Shown: one piece after another, positions 13,180-36,664 of the stretch
Position numbering within the stretch: position 1 is the first letter of the stretch
Layout: each line of letters starts with the position of its first letter
Assembly: GCA_020466095.1 (NCBI GenBank)
Contig: CM035808.1
Coordinates: 72,595,188 to 72,659,187 of the forward strand
From: Chlorops oryzae
Lineage: Eukaryota; Arthropoda; Insecta; Diptera; Chloropidae
Reading direction: 5' to 3'
Length of the DNA stretch: 64,000 nucleotides
Made by a program: the position numbers and the translations under genes
Notes under the pieces: generated by a model
The model's input: the letters and a program-made list of their open reading frames with translations, nothing else
The model's database searches: none
What the model was told of the DNA's origin: nothing

Positions 13180-15097
13180 ATGGAGGAAAAGAGAAACAAT
13201 ATAGAGCAGTTAGCGGAACGAGCAAAGACATACTCGGTAGATGTACAGAGACTAAAAAAAAAATTGTGGGAGGTATTAAAACGATTAAATAACAAAGAGG
13301 AGTTTGCGGAACTAACCAAAGATAGAATTAGGGAATCGCAAGATACTTCGATTTTTGGGGAGTGAGACATTCTGCTAGAAACTATCTTAGATATAAACGA
13401 GAAGAGCTCTGCGGATTCTGAAGAAGAAATAAACGAGTTGCGAGTGGCCAACAAAAGATTGCAGGCTTATGGGGAAACATTAAAGACAAACCTTAAGTAT
13501 TCAGAAAGGTTATTAGAAGAGTCAGAAGAAGCAAATCAGACACTCAAAGAAGCACTAACAACTAAGTACACGCCAGAGCAGGTGGAAGAGCTTGCATAAC
13601 ATAAAAGGCGTTTGGCAGAAGGTGAGAAAGAAATACAAGGGCTAAGACGTCAATTAAACAAGACAAGGAAAGATTTAGAAGCAATTCAGAGAATACGTTC
13701 AACTAGCATTTCAGTGGATAGAGAAGATAATCAGGGAGAACCCCAATATCAAAAGAAAGTAACAATAGTTGAAACTATTGTGAAAACAAGGAATTACCCG
13801 GAAAAACTAGTTGTAACTGAAGAACATTTTCCCCAATGCCATCCCCAGCAACAATACCAGTTCCACCCCTTCCCCCCTCAATCGCTTCCTACAGTAGAAG
13901 AAAACGAGACAGAGGAAATGCCAATTGGTTTTGCAGTAGCGAAAAGTATATTGCAGGAACAGCTGGCGCTGCCGACCAACACTAACAGAGCAGAACATAG
14001 TAAAACTATGCAGTCACGACTAGACGACAGAAATGGAGGAGTAGGGAACACCATGCGCGTAGCTCAAAGTAATTCAAGAGGGAAAGCTTTACTGAAATTA
14101 GTTGAAGCATTAGTGCCATTATTTGCAGGAGTACCTACACCAGACCGAAAAACGGAAGTGACCAAATTCATAATGGGTTGCCAGTTTCTTAAAAGAGAGA
14201 TAAGCGCAAATGAAGAACTATATGCGATCGATCTCGTAAAACATAGGTTGTTGGGTGAGGCTTTTCAGCAGATTGGCACCACGCGGTTCACAACGTTGGA
14301 CGAGTTGTGTCAGATAATGAAAGAGTTATACACCCGTAAAAGAGATATAGATGACATAAGAGCAGAGCTCGCAAGCTGCAAGCAAAACATGCGAGAGTCG
14401 GTGAAACAGTTTGGTATGCGCATCGAACGTCTGTTGAATGAAGCGGAGGAAGCTCTGAATGAGTCTTGGGGTGACACTAGCATGATGCGGTTTTTCCGAA
14501 AACTCGCTGTCAAAACTTTTGTAAAAGGGCTAAGAGACCAATCTATACGGAACATATTTGTGGGGCAGCAGGACGCTTCAACTGGGAAACTGGTAAACCT
14601 GGTATTACAAAATATTGATCTATTAGGCGATAACAATTCTAATATAAATTACACGATAGAATTAGAGAATGATACCCCAGCTAGCTGCCATTTTTGCAAG
14701 AAGTCAGGCCATTTCTATGCCCATTGCAGCGAAAGGCTAAAATGCTGGATGTGGGAAAACAGCGGTAGTCCAAATAGCCAATAATCAAGGGTAATCGCGG
14801 TTCAGTGATTATTGCAAACGCGAGGGGCATGTAGAGGCACAGTGCTTCATAAGAATGCGTGCACTTTTTTGCAATAAATGCCAGACCCCCGGCCATGAAC
14901 AAAATAGGTTTTGCAGAGGATCGACAGGAGGTGGAAACAACGGGTTTCAAAGGGAGACCCCTAGAATGCCACCTCTGAATAGAGATACCTGTGCAAAATG
15001 TAGGGAGAAAGGCCACTGGGCACGGAATTGCCCAAAAGAGGAGCAACCGGGTAGGCCACTAACGGGAAACGCACAAGGCGCCAGTCTAAGCAAATAG
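13180..15097 (+). pseudogene. gag: Gag of Gypsy element A (broken)
   Basis: Starts with a coiled-coil-rich segment at 13180. It stays in one frame to 14784 apart from in-frame stops at 13363 (TGA) and 13597 (TAA), then shifts frame before 14855. A capsid-like region (about 14090-14640) reads KFIMGCQFLKREIS, FVKGLRDQSIRNIF and similar, closely paralleling Gag of element B. Zinc knuckles follow: CHFCKKSGHFYAHC near 14687, then, in another frame, CNKCQTPGHEQNRFC and CAKCREKGHWARNC. The two elements clearly belong to one lineage. Stops and frameshifts make this copy inactive. Confidence 0.8.
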
Positions 15098-15489
15098 GCT
15101 GAGGAGAATAACGGGGTTTGTTTAAGGAGATGAATGGGGACAACATAAGCCAGGTAGATCTTTCGGAAGAGGAGCATAAATGGAAAATTAGGAGAAAAAC
15201 AGGGAAGCAAAATGTAACCCTTACAGGTGTTGACGAAATAAGAATTATTCCAAGCAGAATAGAGGAAGAAGTGAGAAGTGGGAGAGTAAAAAGAGAAGTG
15301 AGAACAAATCCACGTAGTATGGCGGGAGTAGAAAAGTCATAAAGTGCAAGGATCAAAGCACAGAAAAACAATTTGCTAACAAGTTAACAAAATAGTAACA
15401 AGTTTATAATAGGATCAAAATTTGGAACGAATAGTTTTGCAACTAGGGAGATCGGAATGCATTCATAAAAGAGCCATGTGCAGAGGCAA

Positions 15490-17729
15490 TTAATGGAGAG
15501 CTTTGGTTATTAGTTGACTCAGGGGCGGATACAAGTATAGTAAAAAGGGGATCATTGGTGGCAGGTGTGCCACTCGACCAAACTTCACGGAAATGGTTGA
15601 ACGGTCCGTTTAAACGGGGTCGCAACTGGTGGCTTAGTGACCATCCAACACGCCACAAAGCTCATGATGAAGCTGCAAATGCAGGTTGTGGACTTGGACA
15701 GAGGTATACCAGCGGATGGACTCTTGGGTAGGGACATCCTCTGGAACCAGTTCATATTAGACACAGTGGGCAAGCAGCTGAAATTCTTTCCAGAGGGACA
15801 AAGGCCTATTTGCTAAGAGCTATTAACGCACAAGGAGAGGAAGGGTATATGTTCCATAAAAGAATTTTCGGTACCACCAAGATCAATCAGAATTGTTCCA
15901 TTACAGTTTCAAGCACCGGAAAATAAAGTGAATGTGCAGAAAAAAGAAATAAGTGAAAACGTTTTCTTAGGAGAAACGCTTACAAAGATAAGGGATGGAA
16001 TAAGGTATGCTCCAATACTCAACGCTAATAATCAAGAGGTAGTGATCAAGCTTTTTAGTGACATAGAATATGCAAAGAAAGACGAATTTAACGAGATTTC
16101 AGAAGCAGAACTAAATTTAACAAACAGTATTGATGTGGTAGATAGGGTTAAGCAAATTTTGAAAGGTGTCCAAGCGAATGTAATTTTGAATTCAGAAGAA
16201 AGGGAATCATTAGAAAGGGTGGTTAAAAAGTATAGCGATGTTTTTCAGTTGGAAGGTGACGCACTGACATATACAGATGTTCTAAGGCATGCGATTCCAA
16301 CCATTCCGGGGACAGCTCCAGTGAATCGGCGGCAGTACCGCCTGCCAGAGGCACATCCTGACGAAATCAAACGGCAGGTAAATGACATGCTGAAGCAGGA
16401 CATTATAGTCCCGAGCAAATCACCGTGGAATTCACCGATTATCCTAGTCCCGAAAAAGTCTGGGGAGGATGGGCAAAAGAAGTGGAGATTAGTGGTAGAC
16501 TTCAGAGAGCTGAATGAAAAAACGATAAGGACAGTGTTCCCCATACCAATGATAGATGAAATATTAGATCAGTTGGGGTATAGTAGGTATTTTACTACGC
16601 TAGACTTGGCAAGTGGGTATCATCAGGTTATGGTAAATGAGAAGGATAGAGAAAAAACAGCGTTTAGTACGGGTCTTGGTCACTACGAATTTAAGCGTAT
16701 GCCATTCGGACTAACAGGTGGGCCTTCGACGTTCCAACGAATCATGAATACTATTCTAACGGGACTGCAAGGCGTAGACTGTTTCGTGTATCTTGACGAT
16801 ATTGTTGTCTATGGAAGAGATCTGAAACAGCATGAGGAGCATTTCCTTAGAAAAGAAGTGGTTTATTTGGGGCACAAATGCTCAGAGGAAGGGGTTCTAC
16901 GTTCCTCAAAAAAATATAAAAGATTTACAAGCCCTTCTTGGTTTCATGAATTATTACAGAAAATTTATCCCGAATGCTGCTAAGATGGCTTTATTGCTCA
17001 CGAATTTGTTGAAAAAGAGAGTTATGTTCAAATGAACTGAAGAATGCCAGACGGCCATGAATGAACTAAAAGAAGCAATTATAAGGACATCGCTTCTAAA
17101 TATGTCGCTTTCACCCACCCATTGCTGCTCACTACAGACGCCAGTGGAGAGGCTTAAGGTGTGGTGATTTCCCACGGGATTCCAGGAGAAGATTTACCTC
17201 TGTGTTACGCCAGTCGCGCGCTCAGTGATACAGAAAAACGATATTCAACAATTGAGAAAGAGTTCCTAGCGATTGTATTGGCAGCGAAGGTGTTTAGACC
17301 ATATCTACAGGGAAGACCATTCAAGGTGCTTACCGATCATAAGCCGCTCAAGGGCATTTCAAATCTGAAAGATCAGACATCACGATTGCCTAGATTCAGA
17401 CACAAACTTTCAGAATACGACTTCGAAATTGTGTATAAACCTGGAAAGCAGAATCTAAACGCGGACGCTCTAAGCAGAGTACCAATCAGTAAATCAGAAG
17501 AGACGGAAGCACAAGTAGCAGTGGTCACACGGGCACAGGCAAAGCAGAGCGAGGATATGAGCAATCTAGAAGCCAGTCAACCGCAGGAAAAAAACTCAGA
17601 GGCCAATGAACTTGGTGACGGCGAAAACAAACCTCGAAAGGGCGATTCATCCAAGAGTAGACAGAGTGAAGCCAAAATCCTAACTCATCCAAAAGAACTT
17701 CAATAAGTATTGAAAAGGTTCCATGACTC
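15490..17729 (+). pseudogene. pol: Pol of Gypsy element A (broken, truncated)
   Basis: Order of pieces: protease with LVDSGADTS near 15510 and a later DGLLGRDIL; RT frame 15928-16983 with intact LDLASGYHQV and YLDD; then a deletion of roughly 27 codons and a frameshift just after the YLDD region; RNase H pieces (TTDASGEA, IEKEFLAIV, TDHKPLK, NADALSR) with a stop near 17156. The sequence breaks off at 17729 at the start of the integrase zinc-binding region, where an oppositely oriented LTR begins. Whether A once carried the phosphatase found in B therefore cannot be seen. The RT active-site aspartates are present here, unlike in B. Confidence 0.8.
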
Positions 17730-20101: not shown

Positions 20102-20611
20102 TGTTATGAGTCAAACAGCAGAGCAGCTCATCTTGTAGCTTACGAAATACCGCTAGCGACGGCAGACGGCCAAAAATGCAAGCTGGCATTTTGGACCTTC
20201 ATACAAGCGTGCCAAGTGCAACTTTACAACATAGGTGACCTTACGCAGAATCGCCGAGCATGCGAATTATGCGAATATGAGAATCGAATGTTCGTGGGAA
20301 CAAAACGACCAACAAACCCGGAAGCACACCTGCACAGATCAGCATGCGTCAGCAGGCCCATGACACCGTTCCCGAAGAACAAATCAGCGTCTGCAGAGCG
20401 CAGACTTAGGTTTAAATATATAGAATAATTAGTATATAAGCTTTTGTATTCTGAACTAAGAATCAGTTGAAATCAGTTGCTAAATATAAGTTGCAGTTAA
20501 CAGTTGTAGATAATCGTTTAATAAATAATGATAAATTATAAAACCAAAGAGCGTTTCCTTTAGAAAATTCGGTCCGATAGGCGAGTGAGGGATTTCGGAA
20601 AAATCCTCACA
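20102..20611 (+). repeat. 5' LTR of element B
   Basis: 510 bp, TGTTATGAG...CCTCACA. Compared with the 3' LTR I see A versus G in ACTTTACA[A/G]CATAGG and C versus T in AAA[C/T]... near 20562. ATATATAGAATAATTAGTATATAAGC near 20420 offers TATA-like promoter sequence, and AATAAATAATG near 20520 an AATAAA signal. Confidence 0.92.
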
Positions 20612-20618
20612 GCATTAT

Positions 20619-20630
20619 TGGCGCAGCCGG
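20619..20630 (+). other. Primer-binding site of element B
   Basis: TGGCGCAGCCGG seven bases after the LTR. Same type as element A, consistent with serine-tRNA priming. Confidence 0.75.
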
Positions 20631-20964
20631 TTTTTACAACTACTCAAAGTAGTTGACGTCCTACGAGTACACCATCGCGTCCGCGAAGTATTGCACTTTT
20701 AGGGACATTAAAAAGACTAATAGTCCTTGGTATTCAATAAAATTCTTCCGCAAGAGTAAGCCTTGTTGCACTATTAAATGTTGCTAACTGTTGGATGTGT
20801 GTTCAGGCACTGCTAACAGAGCCCGGGAATTGTGTTCAGGCACCGAGGGTATTGCTATATTTATAGAGCGCATGGTTTTCCCTGTTTGGAGAATAAAGAA
20901 TCCTTGGCGAATTAATCTTTAAATGGACTTTTGTTTTTATATTAAAGAGTAAAACGTACTTTGC

Positions 20965-21040
20965 GTCGCGAAAAAAAAAAATATAATCCACGAAAATAAT
21001 CCGCGAAAAATTGTCCGCGAAAAATTATCCGCGAAATAAA
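20965..21040 (+). repeat. Short tandem repeats in the B leader
   Basis: Three to four near-copies of TCCGCGAAAAATTA in the untranslated leader just before gag. Function unknown. Confidence 0.7.
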
Positions 21041-21139
21041 CTTTTTATTCATCGAAGCCGCCGCATCGGACATAGAATTGAACTATCACAAGCACGATGG
21101 TAAGTACATGAAAAACCATATTAATTTATTGAAATTCAA

Positions 21140-23242
21140 ATGGAAGGAAATAGCGCAATTATAGAAAATTTAAAGCAAGAAGTATTCACTTATGAACGTT
21201 TAACTGCTAGTTATTTTAGACAATTGTGGGAAGTCCTAGAGTCAGTAAATAAGAAAAGATCATTTTTAAATTCAGTTCGCAGTGAAATAGAAGGTAAAAC
21301 TCAAGAAGAGAAATTTGACATAGTACTTGAACATATAAGAGAAAATGCAAGTGATAAAAAGAGTAAAGCTTTTGAAAAAGAAGTAGAAAAATTACAGCCG
21401 AGCAATAAATTATTGAAATCACAGAACAAAAAATTAAAAGACGCGTTAGCGGGTTCAGACATATCCTTGGAAGAACAAAAACTAGAAAACGACAGACTAA
21501 GGGAACTTTTATTAAAAGAAAATTTTAGCGCAGGACAGTTAAACCTATTTGAAAAAAGTAGACAAACGATCGTTGAACAAAAAGCAGAAACAGAGCATTT
21601 GAAGGAGAGATTACGTTGTGCCAACCACGAAAATAGTAACATTGGTCGTCCTCAAATGTCTAACAATAACGAATTAACAGTACATAACGAAGCGACCGGT
21701 AACTTAACACCATTATCAAAAGAACTATCAGAAGCTGGTATCGAAATCTCAAAACTGACTCCAAGTCAAATAGAATATTCAGGGGAACATTCATTAAGTC
21801 CTTCGTTGACTCCACAGCCAACACCTACACAAATACCGCCACCCCCGCCTCCACCCTCAGCAGGTCAATCAAATCAGTTAAGACCGAAAACTGATATGAT
21901 GCAGAACAAACATACCAAATCAGATTCAAATTTTTCAGCTGCGAGAGCTAATTTAGAACATTTCTTTCAATTTGGTGCTAACCAAAGAAATAACAATAGT
22001 TTGAGAGATAACAGTCCACAAGAGAGAGTTTCACACCTCGGAAACATTCCAAAAGTAAATGAGCCCATCGCAGTCAGAGAATATAATCGTCCGAGCCACA
22101 TAAACGTGTCTTCAATGAGAACATTAGTCAGTGAAATGAAAAAGGGAGTTGACATGCTAGTGCCTATCTTTTCAGGAACATCTTGCCCAGAGCTTAAAAT
22201 AGAAGTAGATAAATTTATACAAGGGTGTCAATTGTTCAAGAGAGAAGTCTCACCTGGGGACACAGAGCTCGCAATAAAATGCATAAAGCTGAGATTGTTT
22301 GGAAAGGCGCATAAGCGGGTTGGGGAGAAAAAATTTTCATCAATAGACGAATTTTGCGAATTTATAAAACAAACTTATGCTAAAGCAAGGACTCTAGACC
22401 AAATAAGGGCAGATTTAGATAACATTAGGCAAGGCCCAAGTAAGCCAGTGGTCCTTTTTGGTAGCAGGATAGAGGAATTATTGAAAGAAGCGAATGAATT
22501 CGTAAAAGAAACCTATGGATTAGATAAAATGGAGGTCTTTTTTAAGGATCTTGGGGTAAATGCCTTTATTAAAGGATTGCGAGATCGATCACTTGAGCAA
22601 ATGTTAGCTGGAAGGGAAAACGATTCCATTGGTCAGTTAGTAGATTTTGTCGAAAGAATCCAGTCACAAATAGGCTGCAAAGTAAACGAAGTCAATTTAG
22701 TAGAGGATCTGCTCAAAGAGGATAGCGTTTGTAGTTTTTGCAAAAAATCAGGACATTTTTATGCACACTGTAAGACAAGATTAAATACTGCTTTTTGCGA
22801 AAAATGTAGCATTTACGGTCATGAAAGAGGAACACAATGCGGCCAAGAGGAACGTCAAAAATTAAATTGTACTTTTTGTAAAAAACAGGGCCATTTAGCC
22901 GAAAATTGTCTTGTAAAGTTGAGAGAAATGTATTGCCACATATGTCGTATTGGCGGGCACCTAGCTAATAAATTTTGCAGTATGAAGGCGAAAAATTTTC
23001 AAACACAGAATCCAAGTAGAGAGAATAGCAATCAAACACAAAGCCAAAACACTACTACGTACGACAATAGAGGGCAAAGCAGGTTTAACGATCGTCAAAA
23101 TGTGCCCAAAAATGGTCAAGGGGCTCTTAGAATTGATAATAGGCAGTGCTACAAATGCAAACAGTTTGGCCATATTTCACCAAATTGTCCGTCCGCAACT
23201 CAGAGTCAGGGAAACTATACACGGCCCGGTCAAGGCCAGTAG
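21140..23242 (+). CDS. gag: Gag polyprotein of element B
   Basis: 700 residues. Residues ~20-165 are charged and heptad-like, predicting a coiled coil (LEEQKLENDRLRELLLKE). A proline run (about 230-245) includes IPPPPPPPSAG. The capsid-like region spans about 330-520 (KFIQGCQLFKREV, FIKGLRDRSLEQML). Five CCHC zinc knuckles lie at about 531-690: CSFCKKSGHFYAHC, CEKCSIYGHERGTQC, CTFCKKQGHLAENC, CHICRIGGHLANKFC and CYKCKQFGHISPNC. Gag would form the particle and bind RNA. The start is the first ATG after the leader, in frame with everything downstream. Its stop lies in the loop of the frameshift hairpin and overlaps pol by 97 bases. Confidence 0.9.
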   Translation: MEGNSAIIENLKQEVFTYERLTASYFRQLWEVLESVNKKRSFLNSVRSEIEGKTQEEKFDIVLEHIRENASDKKSKAFEKEVEKLQPSNKLLKSQNKKLKDALAGSDISLEEQKLENDRLRELLLKENFSAGQLNLFEKSRQTIVEQKAETEHLKERLRCANHENSNIGRPQMSNNNELTVHNEATGNLTPLSKELSEAGIEISKLTPSQIEYSGEHSLSPSLTPQPTPTQIPPPPPPPSAGQSNQLRPKTDMMQNKHTKSDSNFSAARANLEHFFQFGANQRNNNSLRDNSPQERVSHLGNIPKVNEPIAVREYNRPSHINVSSMRTLVSEMKKGVDMLVPIFSGTSCPELKIEVDKFIQGCQLFKREVSPGDTELAIKCIKLRLFGKAHKRVGEKKFSSIDEFCEFIKQTYAKARTLDQIRADLDNIRQGPSKPVVLFGSRIEELLKEANEFVKETYGLDKMEVFFKDLGVNAFIKGLRDRSLEQMLAGRENDSIGQLVDFVERIQSQIGCKVNEVNLVEDLLKEDSVCSFCKKSGHFYAHCKTRLNTAFCEKCSIYGHERGTQCGQEERQKLNCTFCKKQGHLAENCLVKLREMYCHICRIGGHLANKFCSMKAKNFQTQNPSRENSNQTQSQNTTTYDNRGQSRFNDRQNVPKNGQGALRIDNRQCYKCKQFGHISPNCPSATQSQGNYTRPGQGQ

Positions 23243-26200
23243 ACCGGAAAGCCGATAATAGATTAGAAAAATTAAGGCCTATTCCAGTACCCGGTGGCGG
23301 CAATGTGCAGAAAAATGAACTAAAGAAAATAGAATTAAAAATTTTAAAAAGAAGCACAGAGGAAAAATCAAACTTATCTTGTCAGTCACAGTCGCTATTA
23401 GAACTGGATATAAATAAAATTGAAGTCGAAGACTGCACTATTAAAATAAACAAAAGTCAGCCACTCTGTAGCAGTGAGCAGATGAAGGAGAATGAAAAAA
23501 CATACGTTAGGCTAAGCGAGCCTATATGTTCCGTTAGAAAGCAAAAAGAAACTAATAAGAAGGTTACATTTTCTGAACAAGTTGTTGAGTATACCTATCC
23601 AAGAGATGTTTATGAAATATCATATTCTAGTGATTCATGTGTAAAGCAATTTTTCACCAAGGGATGGATCATACTATTAAGTATGTTGATTATTTTGTGT
23701 ACTAGTCTACAAGAGTCGCTTTCAAAGGGCTTAGTTGTTTTAGAAAGAAAAACAATGGAATTGCATTTAAACAGAAAATTTAATAAGTCAGAGTCAATTA
23801 AAAAGAAAAGGCTGCTCAAAGACCTAAAACTAAACAACTTTGACAGTTCAACAAATTCTTTAACCATAGATGAGGGATGTCGATCAGATGATGCATTTAT
23901 AGTATTTCCGTGTGGACAAGCTAAAAATGATAAATTAACTCTGCTTATCGATACAGGGGCAGACACTAGTTTGCTCAAATCTGAAGTCTTAAAAGAAGAA
24001 GTTGAAGTTGACAGGTCAGAGGTTAAGCAATTAGGTGGAGCATTTGGTGGTAGTATTAGTACAGAGGGAGCTGTAAGGATATCTCACCAAGAAAACAAAG
24101 CATTAAATTTTAATATGCACGTACTTCCATTTGGTAGCAAAGTACCAGCAGATGGACTTTTGGGTAGAGATGAACTGTGGACCCGTTCGGTTACGAATGG
24201 AGTTAACAAGACGATTTCATTTTTCGCAAATAGCAAGGAAATCGCAAGATTACCACTTTGTTCAGAGCAAGAGACTAGAAGAATATGCGTAGTTGAGTCA
24301 ATTACGATAAACGCTAGAACTTCAAAAATAATTCCAATTAAGGTTAATATTGAATCAGGAGATATAGTGGTACATAAGCAAGAAATTTTGCAAGGAGTAT
24401 ACGTTGGAAATGTAATAACAAGAATCAAAAAGGGAAAGGGATTTGTACCAGTTCTGAATGCAAGTAGAAAAAATGTAAAATTTGGACAGCTAAAGGAGCT
24501 AAATTACACTCTTCTTAGGGATTATGAGGAGTTAGGAAAAACAGGGATAAATTTTGTCAAAAAGGATGAGAAAATGAATGATCGTTTTCAATTGATTATG
24601 GAAACAGTACGTTTAGATAATAATTTAAACGAAGAAGAATTCAATTCTATAAAGAGCGTATTCAGAGAATATTCTGATATTTTTCATTTGAGTGAGGATA
24701 AGCTTTCATATACGACAGTTCTTAAACACGAAATTGCAACAGAGCCAGGGCAGCCACCAGTTAATATTAGGCAATATATACTACCAGAAGTGCATAAAAC
24801 AGAAATAACCTCACAGGTTGACAAAATGCTTAAAGATGGCATTATTTCTCCAAGCAAGTCTCCTTGGAATTCTCCGATATTGTTAGTACCGAAAAAGGCC
24901 GGTGCCGATGGGAAAAAGAAATGGCGACTTGTGGTAGATTTCCGAAAATTAAACGATATTACCATTAAAAAAGTTTTTCCAATTCCTAGAATAGATGAAA
25001 TTCTCGATCAGTTGGGTTGCAGTAGGTATTTTTCAACTTTACATTTAGCCAGCGGATACCATCAAGTGCTTATCGAAGAAAAAGATAAAGAGAAAACAGC
25101 ATTTAGCACGGGAATGGGACATTTTGAATTTACCAGAATGCCTTTTGGGCTCACGGGAGCACCTGCAACCTTTCAACGCATAATGAATAGCATTCTCACT
25201 GGTTTGCAGGGAATTGATTGTTTTGTTTATCTTGATAATATCGTTATTTATGCTAGGAATTTAGAAGAGCATGAAGAAAGATTATGTAAGGTTTTTGAAG
25301 TCTTAAGACATAACAGTTTAAAACTTCAAACAGAGAAATGTCAATTTCTTAAAAAAGAAGTTATATATTTAGGGCATAAATGTTCGGAATCAGGCGTGCT
25401 GCCAGATCCACTAAAGGTAGAAAGTGTACAAAAAATATCACCACCCAGAAATGTAAAAGAGTTACAAGCTTTCCTTGGATTAATTAATTATTATCGCAAA
25501 TTTATACCAAATGCGGCAAAAATTTCAGTTCCACTAAACAAATTATTAAGAAAAAACGTTAAGTTTGAATGGAACAATGATTGTCAGAAGGCCATGGAAC
25601 AGCTTAAAGCTGCGGTAACCTCACCTCCTTTACTTCAATATCCAGATTTTTCGAAAACTTTTATTCTAACAACAGACGCTAGTAATGAAGCCTTAGGAGC
25701 TGTTCTCTCGCAAGGAGAACCAGGGGAAGATTTGCCTATTTATTTTGCCAGCAGAGCGTTAAGTGAAACTGAGAAACGATATTCTACAATTAAAAAAGAA
25801 TTTTTGGCAATAGTTTGGGCTGTGAAAAATTTTAGGACCTATTTATTGGGGAGACCTTTCAAAATATACACCGATCATAAGCCATTAAAAGTTATAGCCA
25901 ATTTAAAGGAACAAGATTCGAGAGTAGGTCGTTTTCGCCTTAAACTTTTAGAGTACGATTTTGAAATTTTTTATAAGCCGGGAAAAAATAATCAAAACGC
26001 TGACGCTTTGAGTAGAATTCCACATATCGACAGCACAATATCTGTAGTAACAAGAGCTCAGGCTAAAGAAAACACTGATGAAATAACTGATGAAAATATT
26101 GAAGAAGACATGGCACAAGTTTTAACTGACCCAAAGGAGATTGTAAAGGTCCTTAAAACATTTCATGATTCACCCATAGGAGGTCATAAAGGGACAATGA

Positions 26201-27984
26201 AGACGTTTTTGCGAATTAGAAAACAATTTAAGTGGCAAGGCATGCAAAAACAAATAAAAGATTACGTGAAAACATGTGAACTTTGTCAGAAAAATAAAAG
26301 TTCAAAGGTCGAGAAAATGCCGATGGTTCTCACAAAGATATATAAGATATATATGGACATGGTGGGTCCCCTACCAGTCACTTCAAGCGGTAATAAATAT
26401 ATTCTTACATTTCTAGACGTTTTTTCAAAATTTTTCATATGTACAGGCATTCCCGATGCAGAATCATCGACAGTAGCAAAAGCGTTTTTTAACGAAGTAA
26501 TTTCAAAATTCAATATTCCACGAATTCTTGTCACTGACAATGGCACAAACTTCACTTCAAAACTTTTTAAGGAAGTATGCAAGCTAATGGGAATTAAGAA
26601 AATAGAAACTTCTCCATATCATCCGCAAGCCAATGGTGCTTTAGAAAGAAGCCATAGACCATTAGCCGAATTTTTAAGAACTTTTGCGAAAGAACACGGT
26701 ACAAATTGGGATGATTGGCTTCATCATGCCATGCATGTACACAATAATACTGTACACAGCACTACGAAACAAACGCCTAGCAAAACACTTTTTGGTTTCG
26801 ATTTTGATGTACCTGTTAATCTAAAAAGGAAGCCCGCTCCTCTATACAATATTGATGATTATTCAAAAATATTAAAGTACCAGATTCAAAGAACGCATGA
26901 ATTAGTTCGACAAAATCAAGAAAAAGGAAAGCAAAATTCGAAAATATACTATGATAAGGGATCGAAAAATAGAGAATTTAAGGTAGGAGATAAGGTCTGG
27001 CTGAAAAACCAAACCAGAAAGAATAAATTTTTGCCTATTTGGGAGGGACCTTATAGAGTTGTATCAATTCCCACTTCTGTAAATGCTAGAATTTTAATCA
27101 AGGGCAAAGAAAAAACCTTCCACAGAAATTTGTTAAAAGTCAATCAGGAAAAAGCGAACATTCAATACATAAAAGCATGGAAAGAGTTAGAAGATATTAA
27201 ACGCAAGCTAACCGAAGAGCATGCACAATTGATTCGAATTCCAGTCAAGGGATCTTTTAAACATTTTCTAAGAAATTCAGAAAAAAATCGCTATAGGAAC
27301 GTGCCTTGTTTTGACCACAGTCGTGTAAAAATTTCACGACAACACGAGAACATGTCAGGATATATTCATGCTAGTTTTGTGGATGGATACAAAAAGACGA
27401 AGTCATATATAGCTACGCAGGGACCTCTCGAAAATTCCATACAAGACTTCTTTCAAATGGTATGGGAACAAAATTGTAATACCATAGTTATGCTCACGAA
27501 GTCGAGAGAGTGTGCTAGATACTGGGAAGCTGACGTAAATTCCACCAAAATATTTTCCCAATTTCGCGTTAAAACTCTCAATAAAAATGAAAACAAGAAT
27601 TTTGTTTGTACGGAATTAGAACTATACGATCAAAAATCAGAAACTTCTAGAACAATTTACCATTGGCAATTTAGGTGTTGGGCCGATCAAGGCATACCAA
27701 ATGCTAAATTATTATGGCAATTTATAAGATTAGTTAAGGAAAATCAAAAGAGGTTAACTACTAACATAACAAATCCGCCGCCGATGATAGTTCATTGCGC
27801 TGCAGGCATAGGTAGAACATGCGTTTTTATAGCTTTAAATATCGCCTTAGATTTGAAAGAAAATAAAAAGAACATCAAGGTACGGGAAATAGTAAACAAA
27901 ATACGTGCACAAAGGGCGCAAGCAATTCCAAACGCCACACAATACATATTTTGTTACCAGGCCCTTAAAGTACTACTTAAATGA
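23146..27984 (+). CDS. pol: Pol polyprotein of element B with C-terminal tyrosine phosphatase
   Basis: An open frame of 1,612 codons, probably expressed as Gag-Pol from about 23209. Landmarks by codon of this frame: hydrophobic stretch 174-188; protease IDTGADTS with D269; RT about 520-720; RNase H about 840-970 (TTDASNEALG, KKEFLAIVW, YTDHKPLK, NADALSR); integrase zinc-binding H-H-C-C; catalytic D1071, D1131, E1167 (35-residue spacing); a GPY/F-type WEGPYRV near 1300; then the phosphatase from about 1365 to the stop. The RT is odd: motif A reads LHLASGY (H633 for the usual D) and motif C YLDN (N698 for D), so polymerase activity is probably lost. Protease, RNase H and integrase residues are intact. 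Confidence 0.92.
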   Translation: MLQMQTVWPYFTKLSVRNSESGKLYTARSRPVDRKADNRLEKLRPIPVPGGGNVQKNELKKIELKILKRSTEEKSNLSCQSQSLLELDINKIEVEDCTIKINKSQPLCSSEQMKENEKTYVRLSEPICSVRKQKETNKKVTFSEQVVEYTYPRDVYEISYSSDSCVKQFFTKGWIILLSMLIILCTSLQESLSKGLVVLERKTMELHLNRKFNKSESIKKKRLLKDLKLNNFDSSTNSLTIDEGCRSDDAFIVFPCGQAKNDKLTLLIDTGADTSLLKSEVLKEEVEVDRSEVKQLGGAFGGSISTEGAVRISHQENKALNFNMHVLPFGSKVPADGLLGRDELWTRSVTNGVNKTISFFANSKEIARLPLCSEQETRRICVVESITINARTSKIIPIKVNIESGDIVVHKQEILQGVYVGNVITRIKKGKGFVPVLNASRKNVKFGQLKELNYTLLRDYEELGKTGINFVKKDEKMNDRFQLIMETVRLDNNLNEEEFNSIKSVFREYSDIFHLSEDKLSYTTVLKHEIATEPGQPPVNIRQYILPEVHKTEITSQVDKMLKDGIISPSKSPWNSPILLVPKKAGADGKKKWRLVVDFRKLNDITIKKVFPIPRIDEILDQLGCSRYFSTLHLASGYHQVLIEEKDKEKTAFSTGMGHFEFTRMPFGLTGAPATFQRIMNSILTGLQGIDCFVYLDNIVIYARNLEEHEERLCKVFEVLRHNSLKLQTEKCQFLKKEVIYLGHKCSESGVLPDPLKVESVQKISPPRNVKELQAFLGLINYYRKFIPNAAKISVPLNKLLRKNVKFEWNNDCQKAMEQLKAAVTSPPLLQYPDFSKTFILTTDASNEALGAVLSQGEPGEDLPIYFASRALSETEKRYSTIKKEFLAIVWAVKNFRTYLLGRPFKIYTDHKPLKVIANLKEQDSRVGRFRLKLLEYDFEIFYKPGKNNQNADALSRIPHIDSTISVVTRAQAKENTDEITDENIEEDMAQVLTDPKEIVKVLKTFHDSPIGGHKGTMKTFLRIRKQFKWQGMQKQIKDYVKTCELCQKNKSSKVEKMPMVLTKIYKIYMDMVGPLPVTSSGNKYILTFLDVFSKFFICTGIPDAESSTVAKAFFNEVISKFNIPRILVTDNGTNFTSKLFKEVCKLMGIKKIETSPYHPQANGALERSHRPLAEFLRTFAKEHGTNWDDWLHHAMHVHNNTVHSTTKQTPSKTLFGFDFDVPVNLKRKPAPLYNIDDYSKILKYQIQRTHELVRQNQEKGKQNSKIYYDKGSKNREFKVGDKVWLKNQTRKNKFLPIWEGPYRVVSIPTSVNARILIKGKEKTFHRNLLKVNQEKANIQYIKAWKELEDIKRKLTEEHAQLIRIPVKGSFKHFLRNSEKNRYRNVPCFDHSRVKISRQHENMSGYIHASFVDGYKKTKSYIATQGPLENSIQDFFQMVWEQNCNTIVMLTKSRECARYWEADVNSTKIFSQFRVKTLNKNENKNFVCTELELYDQKSETSRTIYHWQFRCWADQGIPNAKLLWQFIRLVKENQKRLTTNITNPPPMIVHCAAGIGRTCVFIALNIALDLKENKKNIKVREIVNKIRAQRAQAIPNATQYIFCYQALKVLLK
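23209..23254 (+). promoter_or_regulatory. -1 ribosomal frameshift signal between gag and pol
   Basis: In the gag frame a heptamer reads G GGA AAC (23209-23215), fitting X XXY YYZ. After a 6-base spacer, CGGCCCGGTC (23222-23231) can pair with GACCGG (23242-23247) and, past an AAA bulge, GCCG (23251-23254), with a 10-base loop. Pol is in the -1 frame relative to Gag and open here. Heptamer, spacing and stem are textbook; efficiency is untested. Confidence 0.8.
27250..27981 (+). other. Protein tyrosine phosphatase domain within Pol of B
   Basis: About 245 residues, the normal size of a classical PTP domain, in the position where env would lie. Visible motifs: phosphotyrosine loop NRYRNVPCFDHSRVKI (from N1381); GYIHASFVDGY in place of the usual YINAS; IATQGPLENSIQDFFQMVWE; WPD loop changed to WAD with the acid D1514 kept; P-loop HCAAGIGRT with C1551 and R1557; Q-loop PNATQ, losing the first glutamine but keeping Q1599. 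Catalytic Cys, Arg and Asp are all present, so activity is plausible. The family is normally cellular; bracoviruses also carry such genes. No intron interrupts it, which suggests capture through RNA. No protease cleavage site could be identified. Confidence 0.9.
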
Positions 27985-29523
27985 AAATTTATAGAATAAA
28001 TTCATTCTTTGCTTTTTCTTATTTTCGAAGCGATCCTATTTCAAACTGGCGCTACCAGAAATTAAGCTCCACCACGCGACAATTACATATCTTAAAAAAA
28101 TAAAAAATTAACAATTTTCTGTTCAAGACAAAAGTGCTCGCATATCAAAACAAGCGAAGACACAATAAAAGCAAAATAATTTTTTTTTTTAATTTTTGAA
28201 TAGTAGAAGCTAGCCGCGAACTAAATCTTGATGAACAAACACAATTTTTTTTATAGTGCACTTGACATTGCAATATTGGAAAAAATAAGAAAATAATAAT
28301 TGAACTCAAACCAATAAAAGACAGTCAAAAGGAAATAGGTCAAGTTCGAAAGCAGTTATGCAAAAATTCAAAATTGTCAAGTTCGATTTGGACAGCCGAA
28401 ATAAAGGCAGGGACACGAGAATAGTTGTAGCACAGGTAGGGAATAATTTCATGTTTTCTTTTTCTTTTCAGGAAGACCAATAAGGCTTAACGATGGATAT
28501 CAGACGTAAAATTTCCCTTCTAAAATTTGGAAACTCAATTGAAAGTGTTGAAATTCCTAAATTCAATTTAGATTCCAAACTAAGAAGAGGGGAAGAGTGT
28601 TTGGTAAGAAAAAAAAAAAAAAATAATAATAATAATAATAAAAAAAAATAAAAAATCAAGTATCTAAATTAACAAAATTTGACATTACACTTCACTTAAA
28701 AAAAAGGAGTAATTTCCCACTAGTTGCACTTCAAAGTTTAAAGAAAAGAAAAGCGAATTATTCAAAAAATTATAAATATAAAATATATAAAATCATTCAA
28801 AATTATTTAAAAAAAAAAAATATATATATATATAGATACATATTTGAATGGAAAAATATTCTGAGGAAAAAGCAAAATTTAAAATTCAAAATGTTCGAAA
28901 TCATGAAATTTAAATAGATCATACTAATAGTAAAAGACTAAAATTTCGATAACATATATGTATATAGTTGTAAGAAAAATCGAAAAATTAGTAGCTTAAA
29001 ACTGAATTATATAATTAAGAATATTAAACAATTATTATATTATAAAATTAAAATATAGATTATAATCTGTAAGTCAAATTTTTGTAAATTACAGGTGGGA
29101 GACAGTTGAAACAAAGAAAATATTTAATGAAAAAAAAAGAAAGAAAAATAATAAATAAATTGAACATGAGAAACCCATAATTAAAAAAAAAAAAAAAAAA
29201 AAAAATAATAAAAAAAAAAAAAAAAAAATTGTTATAAAAACACACTCCAACTGTCTCAATCGAATCTATAGCAGAATGACGCAGGAGAGGACATCGATGG
29301 GATGCTGACCATGCTGACCACAAGCTTCGTAATTAACCAATATATCGTAAGGTCGTCACCTACCAGAACCAGAAACAAGAAAACTCAAAACGTTAGTCGG
29401 AAGTTCGAGCAGTTCCAGAGTTGCACCAACAAAAAATATGAAAGTTAAACCACTTAAAATTTTGGGACCAAATAAATAGTTTTCCTGTCGGATCCCAACA
29501 AGCAGCCAATCTTCCTATAACAG
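27985..29523 (+). other. 3' region of element B with splice-like sites
   Basis: No long ORF. A possible mini-intron runs from CACAG|GTAGGG (28436) to TTTTCTTTTCAG (28470), only about 35 bp. Then ATGGATATCAGACG opens a 36-codon frame (MDIRRKISLLKFGNSIESVE...) that reaches a donor-like TTG|GTAAGA near 28602. An acceptor-like TTTGTAAATTACAG sits at about 29081-29094. The intervening DNA is A-rich with long A runs. The arrangement suggests spliced subgenomic RNA feeding the frame at 29524, but this is inference. Confidence 0.45.
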
Positions 29524-29967
29524 ATGACTCAAAACACTAAGATGGCTTTTGCGGCAATCCTTACAATAGCAATGACAAACTTACCTTCCACCGTTAATTT
29601 GAATGCCAAAACGTGGCATCGTCTTCAAAAGGGGGAGGGATGTTATGAGTCAAACAGCAGAGCAGCTCATCTTGTAGCTTACGAAATACCGCTAGCGACG
29701 GCAGACGGCCAAAAATGCAAGCTGGCATTTTGGACCTTCATACAAGCGTGCCAAGTGCAACTTTACAGCATAGGTGACCTTACGCAGAATCGCCGAGCAT
29801 GCGAATTATGCGAATATGAGAATCGAATGTTCGTGGGAACAAAACGACCAACAAACCCGGAAGCACACCTGCACAGATCAGCATGCGTCAGCAGGCCCAT
29901 GACACCGTTCCCGAAGAACAAATCAGCGTCTGCAGAGCGCAGACTTAGGTTTAAATATATAGAATAA
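29524..29967 (+). CDS. 147-codon frame running through polypurine tract into 3' LTR
   Basis: Begins right after an acceptor-like CTTCCTATAACAG. The N-terminus MTQNTKMAFAAILTIAMTNLP looks like a signal peptide (hydrophobic core about residues 8-20). Codons 1-39 lie upstream of the LTR, and codons 40-147 are LTR sequence with several cysteines (CQVQLYS, CELCEYENR). The LTR portion stays open in all three LTR copies in this window, and the complete frame recurs intact at 34258-34701. No homology recognised. It may be chance openness in a short LTR; it is reported because start, splice site and signal-like segment coincide. Confidence 0.35.
   Translation: MTQNTKMAFAAILTIAMTNLPSTVNLNAKTWHRLQKGEGCYESNSRAAHLVAYEIPLATADGQKCKLAFWTFIQACQVQLYSIGDLTQNRRACELCEYENRMFVGTKRPTNPEAHLHRSACVSRPMTPFPKNKSASAERRLRFKYIE
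29627..29640 (+). other. Polypurine tract of element B
   Basis: AAAAGGGGGAGGGA directly before the 3' LTR, the usual plus-strand primer. Confidence 0.85.
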
Positions 29968-30150
29968 TTAGTATATAAGCTTTTGTATTCTGAACTAAGA
30001 ATCAGTTGAAATCAGTTGCTAAATATAAGTTGCAGTTAACAGTTGTAGATAATCGTTTAATAAATAATGATAAATTATAAAACTAAAGAGCGTTTCCTTT
30101 AGAAAATTCGGTCCGATAGGCGAGTGAGGGATTTCGGAAAAATCCTCACA
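29641..30150 (+). repeat. 3' LTR of element B
   Basis: 510 bp, TGTTATGAG...CTCACA, near-identical to the 5' LTR. Immediately followed by minus-strand RNase H sequence of element C. Confidence 0.92.
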
Positions 30151-31760
30151 ACAGACCATATAGGTAGTGTCTTAAATTTTTTAAAGCCCAGACAATTGAA
30201 AGTAACTCTCGTTCATTAGTTGCATAATTTTGTTCGGTGGTAGATAAAGTGCGGGATATCATGGTAATGGGTTTTCCCTCTTGCGAAAGCACAGCTCCTA
30301 ACGCGACGGAGGATGCGTCAGTAGTCAGGTCGAAAGGTTTTGAGAAATCAGGATGGACCAAAAGAACGTCTTCCGATGCAAGAATAGCCTTCAGCTTGTT
30401 AAATGCCTGAACAGCTTCATCGTTTAATGCGATCAATTTATTTTTCGATTTGTTTTTTCCTACATGCCCGTTTTAACCAGAAAGGTATGTTGTTAGAGGT
30501 TTGGCTATTTTCGCATAATCGCGTATAATGAACGCAGTGCTCGAAGTGTTTTAGGGGTCGCGAAGTTGAGAATATCGTTTATCTTATTTGGAGAGGTTGA
30601 GATTCCCTTTTGAGAAACAACAAATCCCAGAAATTCTGTTTCAGTCTTAAAAAATTTTGATTTTTCCAAAGAAAAGCGCATTCCTGCAGTTTTAAGTTTG
30701 GATAAAATTCTATTGATATGTTCTTAGTGTGAATAATAATCCGGTGAAAAAATAATTATGTCGTCAATATAGACATGGCAAATTACTCCAATGTCTTCCC
30801 GAAGAATATCGTCGATTGCTCGTTGGAAAATAGCGGGAGCATTTCTTAGGCCGAAGGGCAATCGGCAAAATTCATATTTACCATTATTGACATTAAAAGC
30901 GGTTTTTAGACGATCTGTTTTTTTCATTGTAATCTGATGGAATCCAGATTTAAGGTCCAAAGTGCTAAAAAAATTTCCATTTTCCTAAATTTGCCAGGAT
31001 CACCGTAGTATCGGGTATGGGGTATCTGTCCGGAATTGTAATCTCGTTAATCTTTCTGAAATCTATAACCATTCTTAATTTTTGTTTACCGTTTTCGTCC
31101 AACCCTTTCTCGTTAACAACATGAATCGGAGAGCTGTACGACGAAGACGATTCTCTAATAATACCATCCCGCAGCAAAGATCTAATTTCGTTGTTAACAA
31201 ATTCGGCAGCAGAGATAGGATAAGGGTAGCTTCTAGAATAAACCGGTTCATCTGACTTGGTTTTTATTGAAGCTTCGACTTTTGTATTGTAAGGAAGTGC
31301 CCTATTCGGTTTCGCAAATGCATCGACATTTTGTGCAATTACCTGCTTGAATTCTTCGTTTATGCAAGGTGGCACAGAGGAATCGTCGATTGCTATTGTG
31401 TTAACTTGTTAGAATTTTGAATGTCTTAAAGGTTCTACTCCATTGTTGTAATAAAATTTATTATTGTGGGTATCAAGTGTGGCCTCTATTTCTTTCAAAA
31501 AATCATAATCAATAATACCGTCGTAATTTTTTACTTCGTTCAATATAAAGAATGTAGTTTTTTTTAGAGAGGATGTTAACATTGCATTTGTGTTTTATTA
31601 AGTTTTCCCCATTGACTGAACAAACTCTAAGAGGACGATCCACCAAGGAAATGCCGGTAGAAAATATGTTGGGACGTATATAATTTTTTGCAGTACCAGT
31701 ATCTATTAAAAATCGTAGCTCTTTTCCGTCTTTAGTTTTTTTTTTAACTATAAACGGTAA
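30151..31760 (-). pseudogene. pol: Errantivirus-like element C pol fragment, copy 1
   Basis: Minus strand, order protease to RNase H. Protease LIDTGTAKNY near 31690-31725; RT in two frames (30965-31375 and 30724-30960) with MDLKSGFHQI and YIDD; RNase H piece 30151-30436 with [10 protein letters not shown] and [10 protein letters not shown]. It ends abruptly at 30151 against the LTR of B, in the middle of RNase H (LRHYLYG). Breaks include a frameshift at the RT motif A junction, a stop in the linker near 31409 and another near 30722. The same breaks recur in copy 2, so the element was dead before duplication. Integrase, env and 3' LTR are not in the window. Confidence 0.85.
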
Positions 31761-31929
31761 GAGCGACCTTAGTATAAAAAATGTGCTTCATCTTCGAAGA
31801 CAGATTGCACTTCCGATTCCTCATTGCAAGAATCGAGTACATCTTCACAATTTTGTTGTTCTATTTGATTGGACTGAAAGTATTGCTCATGTGGTGCAGG
31901 TAGTTCCATATGATTGACCCGTTGATTTT

Positions 31930-33064
31930 TTACTTGGGGCATGTTAGCGTTGGTAGGGTTATTAAGTGGTTGTGCGGTTCGTTTGGGTGCAAGAGCTCCA
32001 AGTCGGGGCTGTTCATTAAAAAATTGTGGAAACTGTTGTAGCTGCGGATGCTGCTGAGCTGTTGGCTGCAGTCTTGGCTGTTGCCATTTTTAATTGTTCC
32101 TAAATTGCGTTGCTGTATGGACTTGAAAATTAGTTGGTCTTCTAAAGTACGAGGTTCTTGGGTCAACTTACATTGGAATGGGAGGGTCCTGTTGTTTATT
32201 TGGGTAAGCCAATTGAGGGTGGGTAAAAGTAAGATTCGTATTTCGTGTTTGTGGTGTAGTTCGGACAGAGTCTGGATTAATTTGTTGAAAAGCATGATTG
32301 GGAGGTTTTCCATATGATTTCGCATTCGCATATGTGTTCGCGAAATCATATCTCTGGCGGTTACGCTCCAGTTCTTGTGCGATACCCAATGCATGGGGTA
32401 AATCCTTTGGGCGGACCGAAAAAAGAGTGTCACATAATGGTCGCTTGAGTCCCGAAATAAAAACTCGTAAAGCGTTTTCCCTAGCACGTTCGTTAAAAGC
32501 ACTCGTCAGGTCTTCATTTCCGCTATACGTCATTATATTTTTATTCAATATCAAGGTCAGTTGCTTATCCACAGCGTCGTAGTACTCATTTTTTGAAAAA
32601 CGGCCCTGTCGTAAGGTATTTAGTTCATTTTCCAATATATGTAATGGTCGCTTATCAGAATAAATTTGATCGAGCCTTGAAATGATTGCTTTAAAATTTA
32701 AGGGGGTATTGAAGGAGCTCAAATTTTCGTTAGCGGAGCCTGTAATTTTATTTCTTTGGATACCCATAGCAATATAATAGGTTTCTTAACCCTCTGTATA
32801 ATAGCTAATTGCAAAATTCGTTGCCTCTCGCCAAGCAGGGTATTCTGTGTGACTTCCTTTAAATTCTGGAAGAGATTTTATAAGGCTTAAATCTGTTCTA
32901 CGATTCAATACGTTTGGAGTTATAGTAACGGGAGCAAAAGTTTCAACCGATGGAGGTCTCAAATTTTGAACAGCCTGAGTCAACCCACGAATTTTTTCTC
33001 TAATTTCATCTCTAGCGACGTCCAGCGAGGCTTCAATCAGACTTGTAACCTGTGACCTATCCAT
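31930..33064 (-). pseudogene. gag: Errantivirus-like element C gag, copy 1
   Basis: Starts at 33064. The N-terminal 92 codons end at an in-frame TAA (32786-32788) inside a conserved stretch around AWREATNFAISYYTEG. The same frame resumes and runs to 32168 (KITGSANENLSSF, ADKRPLH-like SDKRPLHILENELN). A Q/P-rich C-terminus continues in another frame to about 31930. No zinc knuckle, as in Gypsy/17.6-type errantiviruses. The internal stop is shared with copy 2. Confidence 0.85.
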
Positions 33065-34257
33065 TATGATTCAACCAACCAACACCGCCTGCCGGAACAA
33101 AACGAACCACTTTCAAATATTAACTTTTGTTTTCAAGAACACAATTTTAGAAAGCCTAATTCACAAGTTATTTTTATTTGTATATTTTTTTTATTTTTTT
33201 TTTTATTTTAATGGATATCAGACGTAAAATTTCCCTTCTAAAATTTGGAAACTCAATTGAAAGTGTTGAAATTCCTAAATTCAATTTAGATTCCAAACTA
33301 AGAAGAGGGGAAGAGTGTTTGGTAAGAAAAAAAAAAAAAAAAATAATAATAATAATAAAAAAAAATAAAAAATCAAGTATCTAAATTAACAAAATTTGAC
33401 ATTACACTTCACTTAAAAAAAAGGAGTAATTTCCCACTAGTTGCACTTCAAAGTTTAAAGAAAAGAAAAGCGAATTATTCAAAAAATTATAAATATAAAA
33501 TATATAAAATCATTCAAAATTATTTAAAAAAAAAAAATATATATATATATAGATACATATTTGAATGGAAAAATATTCTGAGGAAAAAGCAAAATTTAAA
33601 ATTCAAAATGTTCGAAATCATGAAATTTAAATAGATCATACTAATAGTAAAAGACTAAAATTTCGATAACATATATGTATATAGTTGTAAGAAAAATCGA
33701 AAAATTAGTAGCTTAAAACTGAATTATATAATTAAGAATATTATACAATTATTATATTATAAAAATTAAAATATAGATTATAATCTGTAAGTCAAATTTT
33801 TGTAAATTACAGGTGGGAGACAGTTGAAACAAAGAAAATATTTAATGAAAAAAAAGAAAGAAAAATAATAAATAAATTGAACATGAGAAACCCATAATTA
33901 AAAAAAAAAAAAAAAATAACAAGTATGAAAAAAAAAAAAATAATAAAAAAAAAAAAAAAAAATTGTTATAAAAACACACTCCAACTGTCTCAATCGAATC
34001 TATAGCAGAATGACGCAGGAGAGGACATCGATGGGATGCTGACCATGCTGACCACAAGCTTCGTAATTAACCAATATATCGTAAGGTCGTCACCTACCAG
34101 AACCAGAAACAAGAAAACTCAAAACGTTAGTCGGAAGTTCGAGCAGTTCCAGAGTTGCACCAACAAAAAATATGAAAGTTAAACCACTTAAAATTTTGGG
34201 ACCAAATAAATAGTTTTCCTGTCGGATCCCAACAAGCAGCCAATCTTCCTATAACAG

Positions 34258-34701
34258 ATGACTCAAAACACTAAGATGGCTTTTGCGGCAATCCTTACAA
34301 TAGCAATGACAAACTTACCTTCCACCGTTAATTTGAATGCCAAAACGTGGCATCGTCTTCAAAAGGGGGAGGGATGTTATGAGTCAAACAGCAGAGCAGC
34401 TCATCTTGTAGCTTACGAAATACCGCTAGCGACGGCAGACGGCCAAAAATGCAAGCTGGCATTTTGGACCTTCATACAAGCGTGCCAAGTGCAACTTTAC
34501 AGCATAGGTGACCTTACGCAGAATCGCCGAGCATGCGAATTATGCGAATATGAGAATCGAATGTTCGTGGGAACAAAACGACCAACAAACCCGGAAGCAC
34601 ACCTGCACAGATCAGCATGCGTCAGCAGGCCCATGACACCGTTCCCGAAGAACAAATCAGCGTCTGCAGAGCGCAGACTTAGGTTTAAATATATAGAATA
34701 A
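34258..34701 (+). CDS. Second copy of the 147-codon LTR-spanning frame
   Basis: Same predicted protein as at 29524-29967, within the duplicated unit. No amino-acid difference noticed between the two. It lacks an upstream gag-pol of its own because only the 3' part of B was duplicated. Confidence 0.3.
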   Translation: MTQNTKMAFAAILTIAMTNLPSTVNLNAKTWHRLQKGEGCYESNSRAAHLVAYEIPLATADGQKCKLAFWTFIQACQVQLYSIGDLTQNRRACELCEYENRMFVGTKRPTNPEAHLHRSACVSRPMTPFPKNKSASAERRLRFKYIE

Positions 34702-34884
34702 TTAGTATATAAGCTTTTGTATTCTGAACTAAGAATCAGTTGAAATCAGTTGCTAAATATAAGTTGCAGTTAACAGTTGTAGATAATCGTTTAATAAATA
34801 ATGATAAATTATAAAACTAAAGAGCGTTTCCTTTAGAAAATTCGGTCCGATAGGCGAGTGAGGGATTTCGGAAAAATCCTCACA
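34375..34884 (+). repeat. Third LTR copy of element B
   Basis: 510 bp, same ends as the other two, preceded by the same polypurine tract (34361-34374) and followed by the same C sequence ACAGACCATATAGG. It is a duplication product, not a separate insertion. Confidence 0.9.
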
Positions 34885-36500: not shown

Positions 36501-36664
36501 ACCTTAGTATAAAAAATGTGCTTCATCTTCGAAGACAGATTGCACTTCCGATTCCTCATTGCAAGAATCGAGTACATCTTCACAATTTTGTTGTTCTATT
36601 TGATTGGACTGAAAGTATTGCTCATGTGGTGCAGGTAGTTCCATATGATTGACCCGTTGATTTT

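Follow-up and report, generated by a model that had tools for sequence, protein, structure and literature searches.

The stretch analysed here (hereafter, the window) comprises 64,000 nucleotides of the forward strand of Chlorops oryzae (Diptera: Chloropidae) contig CM035808.1 (assembly GCA_020466095.1, positions 72,595,188 to 72,659,187); all coordinates given below are positions within it. A Ty3/Gypsy element occupies positions 20102 to 30150, and its pol open reading frame (ORF) continues past integrase into a protein tyrosine phosphatase (PTP) domain. The initial annotation had described an in-frame Gypsy Pol-PTP fusion without intron or stop. The domain order, together with a complete Y_phosphatase domain 3′ of integrase, bears this out: in an hmmscan of the window Pol, the match spans positions 1–232 of the 234 in the profile (E = 1.8e-70). 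The motifs that the annotation listed (NRYRNV, WAD, HCAAGIGRT, and a late Gln) were all located in the window PTP, and alignment with a PTPN1/2-like reference confirmed its claim that the catalytic Cys, Arg, and Asp are intact. The domain has the features of classical PTPs (PF00102), i.e., the HCX5R loop, the acid of the WPD loop (WAD in the cluster to which the window copy belongs), and the PTP fold. The fold is predicted by an AlphaFold2 model of the last 278 residues, 1335–1612 (pLDDT 78.0, pTM 0.77, with low values in the linker). The best Foldseek match of the PTP model is PTPN9/MEG2 (6l03, E = 5.4e-23), while the nearest solved structures by sequence are receptor PTPs, e.g., 2fh7 and LAR (1lar).

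The window element is one member of a large Ty3/Gypsy family that carries an in-frame, intron-less PTP at the C-terminus of integrase. A PF00102 profile search of the 442-Mb genome gave 596 first-look candidates, 150 of which were scored, with 151 matches and 150 of these listed; the counts are therefore lower bounds. Frames of at least 1500 amino acids surround 33 of the 150 listed matches. The 88 PTP loci fetched (8 + 80) came mostly from the top of the score list and otherwise from further down; 84 are retroelement PTPs, and integrase was detected alongside in 83 of these. At the remaining one, L081, integrase was undetected in the piece fetched, yet the PTP falls in the L071 cluster. Four loci without integrase nearby, L001 (LAR-like in the tree), L002, L060, and L075, were taken as host PTP exons. 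A gene with 65–88% identity per exon to PTPRN2 of the stalk-eyed fly Teleopsis dalmanni suggests that the host is a fly, although these values argue against that species itself. With the window included, the 85 retroelement PTPs form 10 clusters at 80% PTP identity (sizes 24, 15, 10, 9, 7, 6, 6, 5, 2, and 1). The frame is unbroken from the GPY/F-like motif of integrase to the PTP in 70 of the 85, and from the core TDNG motif in 53. Further Gypsy copies with the same junction, which the initial annotation had proposed to look for, are thus numerous in the fly's own genome and are joined by two protein records, P0121 and P0126. Since the junction recurs in so many copies, an assembly join is excluded, and a one-off chimera is likewise ruled out. 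A separate search of the genome with the long terminal repeat (LTR) gave 405 first-look candidates, of which 40 were scored, all 40 being matches.

Most of the listed copies lie mid-contig, at ~59–117 Mb of C1, 44–71 Mb of C2, and 50–90 Mb of C3. Among the contigs seen, these three are the longest (173, 118, and 97 Mb), and such crowding is as expected for pericentromeric regions.

Organisation of the window copy

The features of the element are collected in Table 1, to which an RT_RNaseH domain at Pol residues 834–937 (hmmscan, Pfam) should be added. The Pol order of protease, reverse transcriptase (RT), RNase H, and integrase is that of Metaviridae, the protease match lying just below its cut-off; paired LTRs with TG...CA ends, a primer site, and a polypurine tract agree with this assignment. 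The primer-site sequence TTGGCGCAGCCGG resembles the tRNA-Ser primer site of gypsy-type elements. The gag and pol ORFs share 100 nt, with pol in the -1 frame relative to gag, and the overlap holds a candidate slippery heptamer of the GGGAAAC type, which retroviruses employ for frameshifting.

Table 1. Features of the Ty3/Gypsy element in the window
Feature	Position	Strand	Remarks
5′ LTR	20102..20611	+	TG...CA ends; 508/510 identity with 3′ LTR
Primer-binding-site-like TTGGCGCAGCCGG	20618..20630	+	read 3′ of 5′ LTR
gag ORF, 700 codons	21140..23242	+	Retrotrans_gag 20.2 bits (below cut-off of 24.1); zinc knuckle 21.3 bits (above cut-off of 20.8)
pol ORF (protease, RT, RNase H, integrase, PTP)	23146..27984	+	1612 codons, stop-free; frame open from 23143
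GGGAAAC heptamer, candidate -1 frameshift site	23209..23215	+	gag frame, within gag/pol overlap
Aspartic protease region, RVP	23932..24177	+	residues 263–344; 19.9 bits, below 20.7 cut-off
Reverse transcriptase, RVT_1	24889..25380	+	residues 582–745
Integrase H2C2 zinc finger and core	26128..26625	+	Integrase_H2C2 995–1053, rve 1067–1160
Linker, integrase tail to PTP	27148..27273	+	low model confidence
Protein tyrosine phosphatase domain, Y_phosphatase	27274..27966	+	Pol residues 1377–1607
30-nt pyrimidine tract with AG	28445..28474	+	93% like 5′ edge of related element's env ORF; blast E 5.6e-6
Polypurine tract	29627..29640	+	read from sequence
3′ LTR	29641..30150	+	508/510 match to 5′ LTR

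The LTR pair, identical at 508 of 510 positions, suggests a recent insertion. The window RT itself is probably defective: alignment shows that two catalytic aspartates, which P0120, P0121, and P0126 keep, are replaced in it. Loss of these residues in an element with near-identical LTRs suggests that the copy was mobilised with help from other copies or was recently disabled. The window copy, being probably RT-defective and with no env found, would be a passenger copy of its family. The pyrimidine tract 3′ of pol may be the relic of an env splice acceptor, a possible role read from its likeness to a related element. No target-site duplication was found at this copy, the flanks of which differ and the right one of which lies inside a tandem duplication; this result speaks of the locus, not of the family.

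The duplication covers window positions 28493–37946, where a third LTR (34375–34884) and a 3062-bp flank repeated at 99.7% are found. The 4734-bp unit includes the 3′ end of the element, and the arrangement could reflect a segmental duplication or a duplicate introduced by the assembly. Decayed Gypsy-type pieces (gag and an RT that, judged by eye, is akin to that of the present element) lie just upstream on the same strand (13612–17706). Pieces of a further retroelement (DUF5641 and a weak integrase zinc finger) are found on the minus strand at 45455–46633, and pieces of a Copia-type element (RVT_2) on the same minus strand at 60312–61355.

Active site and selection

The retroelement PTPs retain the active site and bear signs of purifying selection. 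In the alignment with the PTPN1/2-like reference, the equivalents of Cys215 and Arg221 are present in all 85 sequences, that of Asp181 in 82 (L044 has Gly, L084 and L088 have Glu), and that of Gln262 in 68. Mean ratios of nonsynonymous to synonymous divergence (dN/dS) within nine clusters are 0.21–0.63 for the PTP and 0.11–0.35 for integrase, and between clusters the PTP ratio is 0.10–0.32 in the 16 of 45 pairs for which dS was computable; as pairs and sites are non-independent, these figures are descriptive. The dN/dS comparison across copies that had been suggested as a check on the domain gave mean values below 1 within the nine clusters and values below 1 between the computable cluster pairs. 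The second line of evidence comes from eight clusters with at least four stop-free copies each. Differences common to two or more copies comprise 76 synonymous and 63 nonsynonymous changes, as against 94 and 153 among singletons (Fisher p = 0.0019). Such a synonymous bias among shared differences is expected if selection acts on the replicating lineage and decay follows insertion.

In our opinion, the probability is slightly better than even that these elements represent an insect endogenous retrovirus lineage in which a host-captured PTP serves as a Pol domain, is packaged, and acts on host tyrosine signalling. Retention of the PTP through many rounds of spread suggests that the element uses it on its host.

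Several observations weigh against this reading or against full activity of the enzyme. The E-loop of the window cluster is five residues shorter, and none of the 24 members has an equivalent of Lys120; all six members of the L079 cluster carry Glu at that position, Gln262 is replaced by His in the L053 cluster, and sequences of the L066 and L071 clusters show Asn in place of Gly220 and are without Gln262. The contrast between shared differences and singletons runs the same way in five of the eight clusters and, with few counts, the opposite way in L016, L071, and L079. It should be noted that the loci were chosen by PTP-profile score, which biases the comparison toward intact copies. Finally, PTP-less sister Pols, described below, occur in the same genome, which indicates that the PTP is dispensable for replication.

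The altered residues also bear on a different role, in which the PTP would be an integrase tail that steers integration by binding, where the element inserts, to phosphotyrosine proteins or to partners in chromatin, with catalysis secondary. Changes at Gln262, at Gly220, and at the acid Asp favour trapping over turnover in other PTPs, and some of the clusters carry changes at the first two positions and a few at the third. Moreover, chromoviruses carry a chromodomain at the integrase C-terminus, the very place at which the PTP sits, and the listed copies crowd in the middle of C1, C2, and C3. We nevertheless consider such steering unlikely, because conservation of Cys215 and Arg221 in every copy, and of the Asp in nearly all, exceeds what binding alone needs, and because the PTP-less sisters occupy much the same chromosome parts.

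Between clusters, PTP dN (0.20–0.60) is far above that of integrase (0.06–0.23). This difference, like the existence of PTP-less elements, would be accounted for if the PTP were a passenger, i.e., an old accidental capture of little function that is now decaying. However, such a fate fits poorly with the low between-cluster dN/dS where computable, the conserved active site, and the bias of shared changes toward synonymous ones, and we regard it as very improbable.

env, Ulp1, and relatives without the phosphatase

The initial annotation had placed the PTP where an env gene would sit, which did not hold up. In the 3 kb 3′ of the PTP, read in a single copy per cluster for eight of the nine others (all but L014), an env ORF or pieces of one were found in seven: L105 (broken), L106, L108, L109, L110, L111, and L112. 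In L107, no env was found over the same distance. In the L053 cluster, env is present in another copy as well, L097, and Baculo_F (PF12259) was detected in all six env ORFs scanned. Thus, the other clusters usually show the arrangement pol(PR-RT-RH-IN-PTP)-env, and the PTP does not stand in for env; env replacement is ruled out as its role. The three copies examined in the window cluster (the window, L103, and L104) gave no env match.

That the PTP is kept both in env-bearing clusters and in the window cluster, and that the fusion causes it to be made together with Pol, would suit an enzyme whose targets are phosphotyrosines of the element's own Gag, Env, or integrase, governing assembly or uncoating and not host defence. 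The PTP evolves faster than integrase, however, which would better fit host-facing targets, and we judge such self-directed action to be rather improbable.

The PTP, for which we favour action on the host, is accompanied in some elements by another enzyme. L111 has a Ulp1 (Peptidase_C48) ORF 3′ of env (L111:2038-2871), and a PTP-less element, L092, has one as well (L092:1785-2624); PF02902 was confirmed in both. Ulp1 and env occur together in four of 11 PTP-less elements (L092, L096, L094, and L102), and in L099 Ulp1 is split; in L096, L094, L102, and L099, Ulp1 was recognised by tblastn matches only. In six of the 11, neither Ulp1 nor env was found. Judged by these matches, the ORFs for Ulp1/SENP-type SUMO proteases beside env, with or without the PTP, are a second predicted host-facing enzyme captured by these elements.

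The PTP-less elements came from a search of the genome with the integrase tail, which gave 2508 first-look candidates, of which 150 were scored; 16 were fetched, mostly for frames that seemed too short for a PTP. In 11 of the 16, Pol ends just past integrase, and no PTP match lies within ~2.5 kb. L101 ends within the linker, with no PTP found, and L097, L100, L103, and L104 have a whole or partial PTP. Seven of the 11 PTP-less Pols were placed in the integrase tree, where they form their own clade (100/100) beside the window cluster (86/78, not starred) and among PTP-bearing elements. Because this clade is nested among PTP-bearing elements, the PTP was probably lost there. Given these sisters, the PTP is not common to the whole clade.

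Fourfold-degenerate sites bear on the joint history of the PTP and Pol. The L016 (with L032) and L021 clusters differ at 29 of 96 such sites and then at 47 of 62, the jump falling ~100 residues before the PTP, and control pairs are without such a jump (L066–L071, 55/94 then 26/63; L018–L057, 45/88 then 37/63). On the integrase data, the PTP grouping is rejected (p = 0.0006), but on the PTP data, the integrase grouping is not (p = 0.085); both groupings were chosen with the trees already in view. The tree tests give no support to a strictly shared descent of PTP and Pol, and the case for exchange leans mainly on the fourfold sites. These results suggest that the integrase-tail/PTP part has been exchanged between elements.

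Origin and function of the phosphatase

Used as a query against proteins, the integrase and junction gave 279 relatives, and among the 120 listed, PF00102 occurs with integrase in two: P0121 (1622 aa) and P0126 (1789 aa), both with the source label jgi and from contigs of ~7 kb. They are alignable to the window from protease through PTP, with identities of 64% (P0121) and 58% (P0126) in the integrase region and of 33% and 38%, respectively, in the PTP. The window, P0120, P0123, P0121, and P0126 fall together in a single clade (100/99) of a 30-row tree that covers RT to integrase. For P0120 and P0123, no PTP is present in the protein record, which covers the protein only and would allow a separate downstream ORF. 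This tree and the integrase tree were built without a named errantivirus Pol (gypsy/17.6/ZAM). The distant Pol relatives P0166, P0171, P0176, P0169, and P0216 carry other extra Pfam domains in precomputed annotation (PF00443, PF01661, and PF00855), and the wider group may thus be prone to capture.

A 74-row PTP tree, built without bracovirus PTPs and most insect non-receptor PTPs, gathers all 21 retroelement PTP rows (19 from the fly's own genome, P0121, and P0126) in one clade (100/99). The adjoining rows (91/84, not starred) are PTPN1/2-like, fungal, and one, P0081, that we take from its Pfam domains to be HD-PTP-like. The single clade fits one capture, which is probably how the PTP was acquired. 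BLAST is less clear, since the window PTP scores 166 bits against P0126 and 164 against receptor PTPs, hardly closer to its supposed kin, and this counts against a single clade and capture. A host LAR-type receptor PTP was rejected as the direct donor despite the near-equal score, because the tree groups the retroelement PTPs near the PTPN1/2-like, HD-PTP-like, and fungal rows. The captured PTP is present not in one copy but in at least 10 clusters, and the family includes relatives that lack it and gives an indication that modules were exchanged.

No relatives were found in viral contigs scanned with PTP queries or in a scan of genome contigs. A PTP-only protein query returned 22 stand-alone PTPs among the matches listed. 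Against long proteins, the PTP-region query listed only proteins without retroelement domains and missed even P0121 and P0126, a limit of the word search.

Chromoviruses are similar to the present family in having an extra domain at the same Pol location, but theirs is a histone reader and not an enzyme with a conserved active site. Errantiviruses (gypsy, ZAM, and 17.6; Metaviridae) share with the family the LTRs, gag, a PR-RT-RNase H-integrase pol, and, in relatives, an F-type env 3′ of it; the C-terminal PTP on Pol belongs to the present family, and the likeness is one of gene layout. Bracovirus and ichnovirus PTPs, which are delivered by particles, likewise consist of a single PTP domain; they are separate genes of DNA viruses, as opposed to a Pol domain of a reverse-transcribing element, and are likened here by description only. 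Polydnavirus PTPs form large families of single domains of ~300 aa that act in insect cells, with only a subset catalytically active (PMC3573978).

Enzyme capture by LTR elements is already known, and the PTP as a captured Pol domain appears to be the new part. An orchid Gypsy element captured an AlkB demethylase as a separate ORF (PMC9289625), bdelloid LTR elements carry a GDSL esterase/DEDDy exonuclease as a separate ORF3 whose modules are common to several element types (PMC5408684), and insect LTR elements carry a fused SF1 helicase (PMC6338049). Like the present family, these are LTR lineages with a stably captured foreign enzyme; the enzymes so described are others, none of them phosphotyrosine-directed. 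F-type Env has been named as what makes insect endogenous retroviruses infectious (PMC12992720), and the word phosphatase is absent from the main text of that paper and of PMC13172572. The remark in the initial annotation that it knew of no described retroelement PTP agrees with our literature search, in which, among the papers listed, no report of a PTP in an LTR element was found at the level of titles and abstract openings (preprints, most subscription papers, and Repbase fell outside its scope).

If the PTP acts on the host, as we favour, the following course may be proposed. The PTP would have been acquired once from a host and would be synthesised within Gag-Pol, perhaps through -1 frameshifting and hence at the low level of Gag-Pol. 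It would enter particles together with Pol and be active either joined to integrase or freed by the protease. It would strip tyrosine phosphate from host signalling or restriction proteins, either soon after entry or while particles assemble, acting like the PTPs delivered into insect cells by bracoviruses. More tentatively, and with somewhat less than an even chance, the packaged PTP may be an ordinary Pol domain of insect retroviruses, an effector that is swapped among virus lineages along with the integrase tail and that alternates or coexists with a SUMO protease near env.

For genome annotation, retroelement PTP copies could inflate PTP gene counts where these are produced automatically. 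At least 10 clusters have retained a signalling PTP as a Pol domain, often with env 3′ of it, which suggests that it serves an insect endogenous retrovirus as an effector directed at the host. The 85 copies compared, together with several hundred first-look candidates, offer material for asking which tyrosine-phosphorylated host process matters to such elements. If the proposed role is correct, this PTP would, as far as the literature searched shows, have no precedent among retroviruses, and the control that retroviruses exert over phosphotyrosine signalling of insect hosts would become testable.
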